Position numbers and translations under genes: made by a program. This document shows, in pieces, positions 43,648 through 63,668 of a stretch of 64,000 bases of DNA (position 1 is the first letter of the stretch; each line of letters begins with the position of its first letter). The notes under the pieces are model-generated. The model was given only the letters and a program-made list of their open reading frames with translations. It searched no databases and had not been told where the DNA came from. This DNA comes from an uncultured Kordiimonas sp. (GTDB lineage Bacteria > Pseudomonadota > Alphaproteobacteria > Sphingomonadales > Kordiimonadaceae): contig CANMRM010000002.1 of assembly GCA_947500295.1 (NCBI GenBank), positions 310,001-374,000 of the forward strand, written 5' to 3'.

Positions 43648-43662
43648 GTTCGTTTTTTGTTC
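43648..43662. promoter_or_regulatory. LexA (SOS) box upstream of ssb
   Basis: GTTC (43648-43651), seven bases, GTTC (43659-43662): an exact match to the alphaproteobacterial LexA operator GTTC-N7-GTTC. It lies in the divergent region between ssb (-) and the DUF1579-like gene (+), and ssb is a known SOS target in this class. Confidence 0.85.
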
Positions 43663-44874: not shown

Positions 44875-44889
44875 GTTCTTTATTTGTTC
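44875..44889. promoter_or_regulatory. LexA (SOS) box upstream of uvrA
   Basis: GTTC (44875-44878), seven bases, GTTC (44886-44889): exact GTTC-N7-GTTC. uvrA is a core SOS gene in alphaproteobacteria. The box is nearer the divergent GFA gene (36 bp) than uvrA (115 bp), so it could act on both. Confidence 0.87.
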
Positions 44890-59915: not shown

Positions 59916-60620
59916 TTAGTTGGAAGGCTTACCTTTAAAGCCCTGAGCAACCACAAACCACTCCTTGGAATCAGCACGGCTGGCCGGTGGCTTGGTGTGT
60001 TTAACAGACTTAAAATGCTGCTGCATTCGTGTCATCAACGTGTTGTCACTGCCACCCTGCAGAACCTTGGCAACAAAAGTGCCGCCTTCTCCCAGTACTT
60101 TGATCGCAAAATCCAGTGCGGCCTCACACAACGCCATCGTGCGGATTTGATCGGTTTGGCGATGGCCAGTGGCGGAATTGGCCATATCGGACAAAACAAC
60201 ATCCGCCGGTCCACTCAAAGCCTCCATCAGCCGCTCTTCAGCGTCTTCGGCCAGAAAATCCATAACCCATATATCCGCTCCGGGAACTGGCTCGACCTCC
60301 TGCAGGTCAATTCCAATAATCTGGGTAGTTTCCGGCAACTTTTGTGTCATGACCTGAAGCCATCCGCCCGGGGCGCAGCCCAGGTCGACAATGCATTTTG
60401 CACCTTTCAGAAACTGATAACGATCATCCAGTTCAGCCAGCTTGAAGGCTGCCCTGGATCTGTAGCCAAGCCGGTTGGCTTCAGCAACATATGGGTCGTT
60501 CAGCTGTCGTTGCAGCCAACGCGTGGATGATGGCTTGCGACCGCGTGCAGTTTTCACACGCACCTTGGCTCCGCGTGCTCTGCTTCTCGTCTGTGATTGG
60601 CGGTTCCAGCCCTTAGACAT
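59916..60620 (-). CDS. rlmE: 23S rRNA (uridine-2552-2'-O)-methyltransferase
   Basis: RlmE (RrmJ/FtsJ) methylates U2552 in the A-loop late in 50S assembly. The 234-residue protein has a basic N-terminal extension (RSRARGAKVRVKTARGRKP) and a FtsJ domain with the K-D-K-E tetrad Lys60, Asp145, Lys185, Glu220; motif I is VDLGCAPGGWLQV. It overlaps the 3' end of ppx by 8 bp. Confidence 0.95.
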   Translation of the reverse strand: MSKGWNRQSQTRSRARGAKVRVKTARGRKPSSTRWLQRQLNDPYVAEANRLGYRSRAAFKLAELDDRYQFLKGAKCIVDLGCAPGGWLQVMTQKLPETTQIIGIDLQEVEPVPGADIWVMDFLAEDAEERLMEALSGPADVVLSDMANSATGHRQTDQIRTMALCEAALDFAIKVLGEGGTFVAKVLQGGSDNTLMTRMQQHFKSVKHTKPPASRADSKEWFVVAQGFKGKPSN

Positions 60621-62058
60621 TTGAATTCTCTTTGTGTTTCTTGTGTTTTTCCGAGGCTTTCGCCTTTTTCGCTTTTCCCTTGGCCGATATGGAATCGCGA
60701 GCTTTTTCAGGGCGCGACATCGGTACCAGCCGAGGTGGGAGATCCAACTCCATCAAGCCCCTCAATATACCTTCGCGAATACCCCGGTCAGCAACACGAA
60801 GACTGGGGACTGGCCACATGCTCAGTATGGCTTCCAGAATCGCGCAACCAGCAACGACCAAATCAGCCCGTTCACTGCCAATGCAGGGTTCGGCGGCCCG
60901 TTCATCCGGAGTCATTTCAGCGACCCGCCGTGAAAGCACTTTGATGTCCTTGGATTTCATCCAGGCACCATCCACTTTTTCCCTAACATACCTTGGCAGG
61001 CCGAGATGCAGGCTGGCAAGCGTTGTCACAGTACCTGATGTACCGAGAAACTGAGTATGCCGGCCTTTCAGGACTTTGCTAAGCTCATGGGCTTCTTCAA
61101 AGGCATGCAAATGGTCTCTCATGACCTCGATCATCTTTGTGTACTTTTTCGGCTTGGGTGTTTTACCCGGCTTGGCAAATTTTTCTGTCAGGTTGACCAC
61201 ACCCCACGGAACCGACATCCAGCCTCTGATTTCGTTTGCCCTGCCGGGACGGACACGCACCCAAATAAGCTCCGTGCTGCCGCCACCAATGTCAAAAACA
61301 AGAACATTCTTTTTGTCGGGCGCAATGAGGGACTGACAGCCAAGAACGGCCAACCGAGCTTCCTCTCGCGCAGAAATAACATCAAGGTTAATACCGGTTT
61401 CGCGCTTTACACGCTCAACAAACTCGTCCGAGTTATCCGCAATTCTGCAGGCTTCGGTCGCCACATGGCGCATAAAAGTGACATTTCTCCGGGCCAGCTT
61501 CTCCGCGCACACCTTCAAGGCATCAACCGTCCGGTCCATAGCTTCGTCAGACAATCTATTGTCTTTGGCCACCCCTTCTCCCAAACGTACAATTCGGGAA
61601 AAGGCATCAATGACCCGGAAGCCATTTCTCGTTTGTTTTGCGATCAGGAGCCTGCAATTGTTGGTACCAAGGTCAATTGCGCTGTAGGTAATGCTCTTTC
61701 GGGGCTTGGAAACATGCGCTTTATGTTTGTGATGCTTTCCGGCATGGGGCTTTTTGTCGGTTTTTTTCCGGCTGCCCGACCCAGGTGCAGAATTGTGCTG
61801 GCCCTGGCTTTTCCTGCCGCCTGACTTCTCAGGTTTGCTCGGGTCAGAGTCCGCCTGCCGGCGCTTGTGTTTTACGCCCTTACGTTCGGCGGCTATATCG
61901 CTCGCCTTTTTGCCCGTACGGTCGGCTCCCTCTTTACTCTTGGCATTAACCGTTTTGCCGTCTTCGGCTTTTTTACCTTTGGTATCCAGAGCGCGATCTT
62001 TTTTTGATCGCTGGGGCCGAACATCCGCGCGTTTTTCAGCACTGATGTCCAATGACAT
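60613..62058 (-). CDS. ppx: Exopolyphosphatase / pppGpp phosphohydrolase with long basic N-terminus
   Basis: A 481-residue Ppx/GppA-family phosphatase that hydrolyses polyphosphate and pppGpp. The ASKHA domain starts at about residue 122: ITYSAIDLGTNNCRLLIAKQ, then LVFDIGGGSTELIWV. The first 122 residues are a Lys/Arg/Gly-rich disordered region (for example KKDRALDTKGKK, AERKGVKHKRRQ, KHHKHKAHVSKPRK), and the C-terminus is also Lys-rich (GKAKKAKASEKHKKHKE). Basic tails on both ends could bind polyphosphate or RNA. ATG 62058 is preferred; a GTG at 62079 would add seven residues. Overlaps rlmE by 8 bp. Confidence 0.9.
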   Translation of the reverse strand: MSLDISAEKRADVRPQRSKKDRALDTKGKKAEDGKTVNAKSKEGADRTGKKASDIAAERKGVKHKRRQADSDPSKPEKSGGRKSQGQHNSAPGSGSRKKTDKKPHAGKHHKHKAHVSKPRKSITYSAIDLGTNNCRLLIAKQTRNGFRVIDAFSRIVRLGEGVAKDNRLSDEAMDRTVDALKVCAEKLARRNVTFMRHVATEACRIADNSDEFVERVKRETGINLDVISAREEARLAVLGCQSLIAPDKKNVLVFDIGGGSTELIWVRVRPGRANEIRGWMSVPWGVVNLTEKFAKPGKTPKPKKYTKMIEVMRDHLHAFEEAHELSKVLKGRHTQFLGTSGTVTTLASLHLGLPRYVREKVDGAWMKSKDIKVLSRRVAEMTPDERAAEPCIGSERADLVVAGCAILEAILSMWPVPSLRVADRGIREGILRGLMELDLPPRLVPMSRPEKARDSISAKGKAKKAKASEKHKKHKENSNV

Positions 62059-62168
62059 TTTATTCTCTTTTCTTTTCACTGCGCACCCACGCAGTTCACT
62101 TGCCTTTCTATTAGCATTGATCTGCGGTCATGCCAATCGCCCAGTTTTTCATGTGCATTTCGTCTTTT

Positions 62169-62183
62169 GTTCTTTTTTTGTTC
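62169..62183. promoter_or_regulatory. LexA box 1 upstream of the small membrane protein gene
   Basis: GTTC (62169-62172), TTTTTTT, GTTC (62180-62183): exact GTTC-N7-GTTC. A -35 hexamer TTGACT begins at 62184. Confidence 0.88.
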
Positions 62184-62212
62184 TTGACTGCCGCCGTTAA
62201 TACAAATAAGAA
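62184..62212 (+). promoter_or_regulatory. Candidate sigma70 promoter bracketed by LexA boxes
   Basis: TTGACT at 62184-62189 and TAAGAA at 62207-62212 with a 17-bp spacer. LexA box 1 abuts the -35 side and LexA box 2 overlaps the -10 side, so LexA should occlude the promoter. Confidence 0.5.
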
Positions 62213-62224
62213 CAATACAAGAAC
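62210..62224. promoter_or_regulatory. LexA box 2 upstream of the small membrane protein gene
   Basis: GAAC (62210-62213), AATACAA, GAAC (62221-62224): the reverse complement of GTTC-N7-GTTC. A third GAAC follows at 62231 with a 6-bp gap. Box centres 1 and 2 are 41 bp apart, about four helical turns. Confidence 0.88.
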
Positions 62225-62237
62225 AAGGGGGAACGCG

Positions 62238-62435
62238 ATGACCGCAGCTCACATTACGATTATTTGTCTATTCTTTCTGATGGGCGGCTTTGGCATGGCT
62301 GCAATACAGGGTGCCCTTGCAACCATTTTTCGAGGTTATGTTCGCACTGTTGCCAACAAACGACAGTATGGAAATTCGGGTTTTGCGCTCAAATTGAATT
62401 CGCTTGAGCCTGCGATAAAAAAACTGTCCAGCTGA
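62238..62435 (+). CDS. 65-residue single-span membrane protein under double LexA control
   Basis: ATG 62238 has AAGGGGGAA 5 nt upstream. The sequence begins MTAAHITIICLFFLMGGFGM: one hydrophobic span at residues 5-28, then a short basic cytoplasmic or periplasmic tail (FRGYVRTVANKRQYGNSGFALKL, ending KKLSS). A longer frame from ATG 62130 would run across both LexA boxes and has no ribosome binding site. I recognise no family. By analogy with SidA of Caulobacter (a small SOS-induced membrane protein that blocks division), an SOS checkpoint role is a hypothesis, resting on position and size, not homology. Confidence 0.75.
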   Translation: MTAAHITIICLFFLMGGFGMAAIQGALATIFRGYVRTVANKRQYGNSGFALKLNSLEPAIKKLSS

Positions 62436-62514
62436 TAGACGGCCCTGTTTTTTTAGCGGTCTTTAAAGCTTCGAATAGAAATGCCATTTCGGCTTTTTTC
62501 AAGTATGCAGATAG

Positions 62515-62690
62515 ACAAAGTAAAGGCGCGGGTCACACCATATATGGCATAGACACCGCGCCTATTCCGAGCGAAACCCCCAGGTGAAGCCCGGTACCAG
62601 ATTTTCGTAGGCGGCAGCAATTTCTCGCGCCTGCTAGCTGGTGTCACCTCCCCAAGTTAACCAGCCAAAGTCCTACTTCATCTGATGGAG
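62515..62690 (-). ncRNA. Candidate small structured RNA of about 175 nt
   Basis: On the minus strand TTGACA (62723-62718) and TTCGAT (62700-62695), 17 bp apart, are followed by sequence with nested pairing: AGGTGA (about 62650) with TCACCT (about 62583), ACCAG with CTGGT, AGGCG with CGCCT. It ends in a G/C stem, GGCGCGG with CCGCGCC (62562-62525), then a T-rich stretch. Length is in the range of 6S RNA, but I cannot confirm any family. A GTG-initiated frame of 64 codons occupies the same segment and is an alternative explanation. Confidence 0.32.
62525..62562 (-). terminator. Stable hairpin ending the candidate small RNA
   Basis: GGCGCGG and CCGCGCC form a perfect 7-bp G/C stem extended by GTC/GAC, with CCATATATGG in the loop. 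On the minus strand it is followed by a T-rich stretch (TTTACTTT), a weak intrinsic terminator. Confidence 0.5.
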
Positions 62691-62858
62691 TGCCATCGAA
62701 CTGGATTCGCCCGCTCATGTCAAGTTTCGTTCATAAAAAATTAACAAAACGACAATGTTGAAGATCAAACTGTGACTTTTTTGCGTCGGACGCGCTGCTG
62801 GAATGCATCACCGGGTGATGACGCACTCCATGACAGTTTGTGGCGAGGACGAAATTGG

Positions 62859-63668
62859 TCAGCCAACAGGCTCGCCCTGATACTCCGAAACCCGGCAATA
62901 TTGATCAGGGCTAATACGCTTGATGCGGCTGCATAGTGCGTCGGCTTCCTGTTCATTGATAAGTGGCCCGGCTACCAGACGCATAAACGTCCCTATTCCC
63001 TCCTGACTTTGCACATACAGGAGAGGTGTAAGGCCCTGCAGGTCGCCGGCAAAAGTTTGGGCCAGGTTGCTCCATCCACTGCTGACCTGATCACGGCTGC
63101 GGAATGACGCCAGATGCACACCAAAGAATGCTTCTTCGGTCGGCTCGACATTCCCGACGGGCGTCGAGTCCGCTTCAACTGCCGGATTTGCGTCTGCCGC
63201 AGTTTCGGCCCTGCCCGTTGGCGCAGCTTCTGCGACAAAAGCGGGCTCGCTGGCGTCCGCCATTTCCACCGAAAACAGTCTGTTTTCAAGTTTCTTCAGC
63301 TGATCCCTAATGACCGAAACGTCATTGCGAACGCGATTGACGGAGGCTTCAACCTGCGGATCCTTTTCAACTGTTGCCACCTTAGAGCCCATAGCTGCAA
63401 GTTGCGCTTCCTGGGCACGAACATGCTGAACAAGTTCAACATAAAGCCGCTCAAGGGCGTTGAACCGGTCTCTCAGTTCCCTGTGGTCTTCAGACACAAC
63501 GCCGACATCCTGCGCAAGGGCCTGCTGGCGTGCCTCAACAAAGACCTCTTCGCCTTGCCACATGCTTTGGCTGGCGCAGGCTGACAGGCTTACCATTAAA
63601 CCGGCGAGCAAACATGTCCGGATTGCTTTGCCTGGTAACATGACATTTTTGTGGGGCATATGAACCAT
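62859..63668 (-). CDS. SPOR-domain lipoprotein
   Basis: A 269-residue lipoprotein: signal segment CLLAGLMVSLSAC with lipobox LSAC, a predicted coiled coil (about 55-145; LRDRFNALERLYVELVQHV ... LKKLENRLFSVEM), an Ala/Glu/Pro linker and a C-terminal SPOR domain (about 185-265, FFGVHLASFRSRDQVSSGWSNLAQTF). SPOR domains bind denuded glycan strands at the septum, so a division or envelope role is likely. Start may be 63668 or internal ATG codons nearby. The gene probably follows pssA on the same strand. Confidence 0.85.
   Translation of the reverse strand: MVHMPHKNVMLPGKAIRTCLLAGLMVSLSACASQSMWQGEEVFVEARQQALAQDVGVVSEDHRELRDRFNALERLYVELVQHVRAQEAQLAAMGSKVATVEKDPQVEASVNRVRNDVSVIRDQLKKLENRLFSVEMADASEPAFVAEAAPTGRAETAADANPAVEADSTPVGNVEPTEEAFFGVHLASFRSRDQVSSGWSNLAQTFAGDLQGLTPLLYVQSQEGIGTFMRLVAGPLINEQEADALCSRIKRISPDQYCRVSEYQGEPVG

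Follow-up and report, generated by a model that had tools for sequence, protein, structure and literature searches.

What is controlled by two closely spaced LexA operators lying beside a ppx gene in an uncultured Kordiimonas sp., and what could the product do once the SOS response is induced? The stretch of 64,000 nucleotides analysed here (the window) carries these operators around a promoter-like sequence, immediately upstream of a short open reading frame (ORF) which the original prediction took for an SOS-induced inhibitor of division or envelope checkpoint. As described below, the gene is real, conserved and unannotated, probably under SOS control, and of a known functional kind.

Two operators enclose the putative promoter of a 65-residue ORF

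Operator 1, GTTCTTTTTTTGTTC (62169..62183, plus strand), abuts the upstream side of the -35 element and is retained in relatives, while the inverted operator 2, GTTCTTGTATTGTTC (62210..62224, minus strand), lies 41 bp from it. Both match GTTC-N7-GTTC exactly and stand where they had first been read. The promoter proposed between them, TTGACT and TAAGAA separated by 17 nt (62184..62212, plus strand), holds in part: the -35 element TTGACT (62184-62189) and the -10-like TAAGAA (62207-62212), which overlaps operator 2, are both present between the boxes, but a strict sigma-70 scan did not call a promoter at this position, the -10-like hexamer having no final T. A Shine-Dalgarno-like sequence, AAGGGGGAA (62225..62233, plus strand), ends 4 nt before the ATG, not 5 nt as originally given, and comparable sites precede the start in relatives. 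From this ATG to the stop codon, the ORF (62238..62435, plus strand) encodes the 65-amino-acid membrane protein, confirmed in the sequence.

The feature had initially been drawn from position 62130, where a 101-amino-acid frame begins that traverses the operators. This longer start was rejected: of 20 family loci, 17 have this frame shut before box 1, the window being among the three left open, and therefore 62238 is the likely start. A Pfam match of the 101-residue translation to BPD_transp_1 (E 0.0028) fell below the cut-off and was read as chance.

The arrangement recurs in 31 loci with a box-to-box distance of 40-43 bp (45 bp in one). A hexamer starting with TA lies 17 nt from the -35 element in 26 of these 31, a count in which the search pattern had already fixed the -35 of 25 loci and row L147 had been oriented wrongly. 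The pattern likewise imposed NTNAC, and the A before box 2, on 25 of the 31; the six loci that it did not find have TTGAC (four) or TTGAT (two) after box 1. Since the box spacing varies while the spacing of the -35 and -10 elements is largely constant, operator 2 shifts relative to the -10 element and the promoter spacing is kept. The predicted leader measures 16-31 nt in 20 loci.

Paired boxes stand out from chance

Six GTTC-N7-GTTC matches occur in the 64-kb window, against a mean of 2.06 after shuffling, with 3 of 100 shuffles reaching six. Over the whole host genome the bare motif is not enriched (67 + 62 = 129 matches, versus 62 + 64 = 126 for the reversed control), so that a lone box proves nothing, and we dropped the bare count as evidence. 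The T-rich form GTTCN5TTGTTC, on the other hand, is enriched in the host genome (28 versus 6). An exact box lies immediately upstream of the lexA start in this genome, and boxes of the same type precede two genes of the window, identified by Pfam: ssb on the minus strand (box at 43648-43662) and uvrA on the plus strand (box at 44875-44889). Boxes at these three genes are what would be expected of a LexA site, in agreement with the identity first assigned to the motif.

The paired arrangement is far more discriminating. We searched for two boxes with a -35-like NTNAC between them, using the reversed pattern as a control. This twin-box promoter was found as a single copy per genome in 25 of 296 genomes of the order, and the reversed control gave 0. 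All 25 loci carry an ORF of 34-74 amino acids with one span, starting 10-26 nt after box 2; loss of the ORF with retention of the boxes, which would have spoken against the original prediction, was seen at none of them. Across the class, the strict pattern was matched in 1 of 385 genomes, the window's own, a count that is an undercount because the pattern misses most of the Rhodobacteraceae loci described below, whose box 2 usually has one mismatch.

Boxes and ORF are kept together in five families

Sought beside ppx in related genomes, the ORF and its paired boxes are present in 26 of 29 genomes of the window's family, Kordiimonadaceae: 20 by the strict twin pattern and six reached via ppx, the boxes of the latter having at most one mismatch. 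The same 26 were recovered with a protein profile built from alignment A1. This alignment has 33 rows, formed by 30 of 34 collected ORFs and three further ones, after removal of one 363-amino-acid misread and three duplicates or near-duplicates. The remaining family genomes (G002, G005 and G009) gave no ORF with the A1 profile and no ppx match at E <= 1e-40. Two of them are incomplete; G005 is rated 100% complete, and its absence stands as either a real exception or an assembly gap.

Applied to the 296 order genomes at E <= 0.01, the profile gave 43 matches, of which 26 fall in the window's family. Of the 17 outside it, three (G029, G041 and G062) had been found before with the twin pattern. 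Nine of the 14 loci found by profile only, which lie in the families denoted f2, f4, f6 and f8, are preceded by one or more exact boxes: G054, G035 and G045 have both boxes exact, G037 has one exact box and a one-mismatch partner, and G077, G112, G104, G063 and G047 have one exact box. Among the last group, the f2 genomes G063 and G047 keep the box over the -10 region as their sole exact one, and G077 (f2) keeps the first. The other five (G161, G162, G194 and G256 in f5; G085 in f8) have no exact box upstream; their frames range from 97 to 1181 amino acids and they were read as chance, a judgement made after inspection and not blind. The family f5, which fills most of the order sample, yielded no credible homologue with the A1 profile. 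The same search misses two true members, G071 and G098 (f8; twin boxes and ORF), both of which are rows of A1. In a class sample of 376 genomes reaching beyond the order, only the window's own genome gave a credible match; five others, all outside the order, were read as chance, with frames of 493-520 amino acids in four and 117 in one.

Taken globally, boxes and ORF stay associated in five families of the order, including loci with different flanking genes. Since sites and protein are kept together in relatives, the gene is very likely genuine and induced by DNA damage. With the box also present at lexA, uvrA and ssb, we hold with high confidence that the ORF encodes a small membrane protein under predicted LexA/SOS control.

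A conserved helix face in a protein without a named family

Hydropathy analysis of the protein gave a single hydrophobic span near the N-terminus (approximately residues 5-23) and a tail of net charge +6, as expected from the initial description of a single-span protein with a basic tail. That description also saw no recognised family, and none was found: Pfam gave nothing for the window's protein (P0001) at E <= 1, and 33 family members searched against Pfam and NCBIfam matched no family consistently (best E 0.0049, scattered families). Used alone, P0001 recovered no relative from the genome contigs, a tblastn search against phage also found none, and a profile search of the PDB yielded nothing beyond SecY chains with E values of 0.14 or higher.

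The alignment describes a protein under constraint. Phe12 and Gly16 are invariant in the 26 closest rows, and Gly19 (23 of 26), Gln24 (22 of 26) and His5 (21 of 25) are nearly so; position 25 is glycine in the window's protein and most commonly Asp or Glu in the family. Entropy averages 1.9 bits over residues 1-30 versus 3.0 over the tail. The basic tail is variable, whereas in the span one helix face is conserved, with a periodicity at the helix angle (permutation p 0.0046-0.0069 for three choices of rows and range, and 0.0046-0.0079 over the repeat on one angle grid). Two close pairs indicate purifying selection, with pN/pS of about 0.10 and 0.25: 6 synonymous versus 2 nonsynonymous changes in one and 7.5 versus 5.5 in the other (Fisher p 0.003, and 0.004 or 0.02 depending on rounding). 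The conserved face fits any membrane partner.

Genomic neighbourhood and alternative explanations

The ORF is flanked by a divergent Ppx/GppA phosphatase gene (60613..62058, minus strand; PF02541, 3e-52) and a convergent gene for a SPOR-domain protein with a lipoprotein-like start (62859..63668, minus strand; PF05036, 1.6e-06), both outside the unit itself. The order guaB-rlmE-ppx, ORF, SPOR gene is kept in the window's family: ppx is present in all 26 family genomes, and a SPOR-gene match lies on the opposite side in 25 of them, the contig ending in G004. It is also found in G029 (f2), G045 and G054 (f6). G063 retains ppx without a SPOR match, and G047 retains guaB and rlmE, with neither ppx nor the SPOR gene within the stretch read. 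Nine f8/f4 loci have a different setting, with no ppx match within the 6-8 kb read around the unit and with a gene for a TPR protein nearby (in G098 another ORF lies in between). Pfam places a C-terminal SPOR domain in five of the six TPR proteins scanned (the exception being G035), and tblastn with the C-terminus of the first one matched the SPOR region in all nine loci, itself included. A SPOR-domain gene thus recurs near the ORF in two chromosomal settings, as the lipoprotein-like gene and as the TPR-SPOR gene. SPOR domains bind septal wall, and their proximity offers a faint, circumstantial hint of a role in division.

This neighbourhood bears on whether the boxes act for ppx, or another neighbour, with the small ORF as an incidental passenger. 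The ppx start is divergent and only ~90-110 bp from box 1, and this arrangement persists in the family and in G029, as such a reading would predict. The nine f8/f4 loci argue otherwise: they keep boxes and ORF together without a nearby ppx, and hence the boxes belong to the ORF. Moreover, the promoter between the boxes points to the ORF, the SPOR gene runs in the opposite direction, and the ORF evolves as a protein, which makes control of a neighbour very improbable. Mere coincidence of boxes and ORF in T-rich intergenic DNA would suit the near-equality of the bare pattern with its reversed control in the host genome; it is refuted by conservation, the twin pattern occurring in 25 of 296 genomes against 0 in the control with an ORF at each, and we regard its probability as negligible.

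Two further alternatives accept the gene and its control and concern the function. Many small membrane proteins act as regulatory subunits of other membrane proteins, and the product could be an SOS-induced subunit of this kind (of a protease, a transporter or an envelope sensor), tuning envelope physiology without directly blocking division. The combination of conserved span and variable tail would suit any partner, but no conserved co-oriented operon partner appears in the stretches read, and the recurring neighbour is a convergent SPOR-domain gene, pointing if anything to the septum; we therefore consider this reading unlikely. Slightly less likely still is an SOS peptide that acts on the membrane in the manner of TisB/DinQ, which would lower the membrane potential and slow growth with no specific effect on division. 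TisB/DinQ-type genes depend on regulated leaders and antisense RNA, whereas the leader predicted in the 20 loci is short and the region 61900-62900 has no Rfam family match; in addition, one conserved helix face favours a specific partner. In favour of such a peptide, size and hydrophobicity are compatible, and E. coli has small SOS-induced peptides which share the single span of the window's protein, according to the available parts of two reports (PMC3567139, PMC11575346).

Comparison with known division inhibitors and proposed mechanism

By analogy with known systems, a role as a division checkpoint is the reading towards which we lean, if only somewhat. The closest counterpart in description is SidA of Caulobacter crescentus: it is tiny and alphaproteobacterial like the window's protein, and it is LexA-controlled and located in the inner membrane, as is predicted here. 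The consulted part of PMC4211646 presents SidA as an SOS-induced division inhibitor linked to FtsW; it has 29 residues, compared with 65 here. The same part describes DidA from this organism, a 71-residue protein with one span, linked to FtsN. DidA resembles the window's protein in size and in its one predicted span, but is SOS-independent and induced by DriD, whereas our gene lies behind LexA boxes. In contrast to the two boxes conserved here, some 97% of Caulobacter SOS promoters have just one LexA box, and the sidA promoter is stronger than that of uvrA, as stated in the accessible portion of PMC12700426, which does not give the number of boxes at sidA itself.

Outside this group, YneA (Bacillus), ChiZ (Mycobacterium) and SosA (Staphylococcus) are DNA-damage-induced small membrane division inhibitors, as is proposed here for the window's protein. 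YneA and ChiZ have a LysM domain, whereas Pfam and NCBIfam searches found none in our protein. In the portion of PMC13396833 at hand, YneA contacts TM7 of FtsW, and ChiZ, SosA and SidA are low-confidence predicted FtsW binders. Likeness to SidA, DidA, YneA, ChiZ and SosA makes a division-inhibitor role plausible.

Mechanistically, two LexA dimers separated by about four turns of the helix, the first bordering the -35 element and the second covering the -10 region, would keep the promoter shut; the presence of two operators suggests tight repression of a harmful product, as had been proposed. Cleavage of LexA driven by RecA would free the promoter, giving an mRNA with a predicted leader of ~19 nt that would be translated from what appears to be a good ribosome site. 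The N-terminal span would then insert in the inner membrane, leaving the basic tail in the cytoplasm by the positive-inside rule, and the conserved helix face (His5, Phe12, Gly16, Gly19) would dock on a membrane partner. By likeness to SidA, DidA and YneA, this partner may belong to the late divisome (FtsW or FtsN, for example), and septal wall synthesis would be held back until repair is complete. We favour a new family of small proteins of the inner membrane, repressed by LexA, which probably act as late-divisome checkpoint inhibitors and work like SidA.

A second small membrane protein behind the same operator design

Scanning named genomes for twin boxes gave 81 matches. Among the 80 listed (L038-L117), 25 are of the window's type, 42 belong to a Rhodobacterales type and 13 have no small membrane ORF. 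These 13 were taken as chance or as another repeat: nine are from Bacteroidales (eight of them from one MAG), and the others from Ruminococcus, Chloroflexi, Geminicoccaceae and Filomicrobium. The eight stretches of the Bacteroidales MAG (L039, L040, L053, L074, L088, L102, L109 and L114) share a similar core with TTTAC and probably represent an unrelated repeated element.

The Rhodobacterales-type ORF encodes 31-47 amino acids with one span at the C-terminus. Asp19 and Gly22 are invariant in alignment A2, which holds 27 of the 42 rows of this type. Upstream of the ORF lies recG, in eight loci examined by eye, with RecG domains found by Pfam in the two scanned. The profile of this family matches 129 of 149 genomes of one family, which we infer to be Rhodobacteraceae. 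The 30 best-scoring loci and two more (L224-L255), not a random draw, were examined: in all 32 the first box is exact and the second deviates at no more than one position, both boxes being exact in three, and the boxes are 38 bp apart (39 bp in one); in L243, cut by a contig end, they were read by eye.

The recG-linked protein of 40 residues has several features in common with the window's protein, namely twin LexA operators around the promoter, one span and no family name, Pfam and NCBIfam searches of this second family having returned none. It differs in the operator distance (38 bp versus 41 bp), in the position of the span (C-terminal versus N-terminal) and in its invariant Asp19 and Gly22. 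Profile comparison gave no support for homology of the two families (hhalign probability 0.8%). With twin operators in both and no profile similarity, these are two unrelated small membrane proteins behind one operator design.

A tentative generalisation, to which we give somewhat less than an even chance, is that Alphaproteobacteria keep a dedicated twin-LexA-operator promoter for a tiny membrane checkpoint product, and that this product has been replaced, or invented independently, in different orders. Kordiimonadaceae and relatives would use a protein of about 60 residues near SPOR-domain genes and Rhodobacteraceae the recG-linked protein of 40 residues, each acting against the late divisome. 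On this view, the form of the control module would be better conserved than its effector.

Beyond a few model species, the arrest of division after DNA damage is poorly understood, because the inhibitors are tiny, evolve fast and lack annotation. The operator pair provides a search handle that finds the gene where similarity to a single protein barely does, and it points to specific candidates in Kordiimonadaceae and relatives, as well as in the 129 of 149 presumed Rhodobacteraceae genomes. If these proteins are division inhibitors, they would be new natural probes of FtsW and FtsN and would show how SOS checkpoints are rewired. In the consulted portion of the open-licence literature on LexA/SOS and small division inhibitors of alphaproteobacteria we met neither family, and an open-licence search for Kordiimonas together with LexA returned nothing. 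The main text of a paper on LexA sites in Dinoroseobacter (PMC6473078) contains neither 'sidA' nor 'division inhibitor'; general background came from the available parts of PMC13384398 and PMC7987155.

Further LexA-type boxes in the host genome

Other regions of the host genome also carry T-rich boxes. Five lie within ~20 kb at C3:280798-301411 (L167-L171), four of them preceding ORFs of ~40-255 amino acids with membrane or export-like starts, one a 40-residue membrane-like ORF; this region is possibly an SOS-controlled island with a second small SOS membrane protein. At L160 and L177, similar ORFs of ~85 residues each follow a T-rich LexA-type box at a distance of ~65 nt and are possibly SOS-controlled paralogues. 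Finally, a second LexA-type DNA-binding domain, in a 79-amino-acid open frame apart from lexA, is encoded at C6:266612-266794 (L180).
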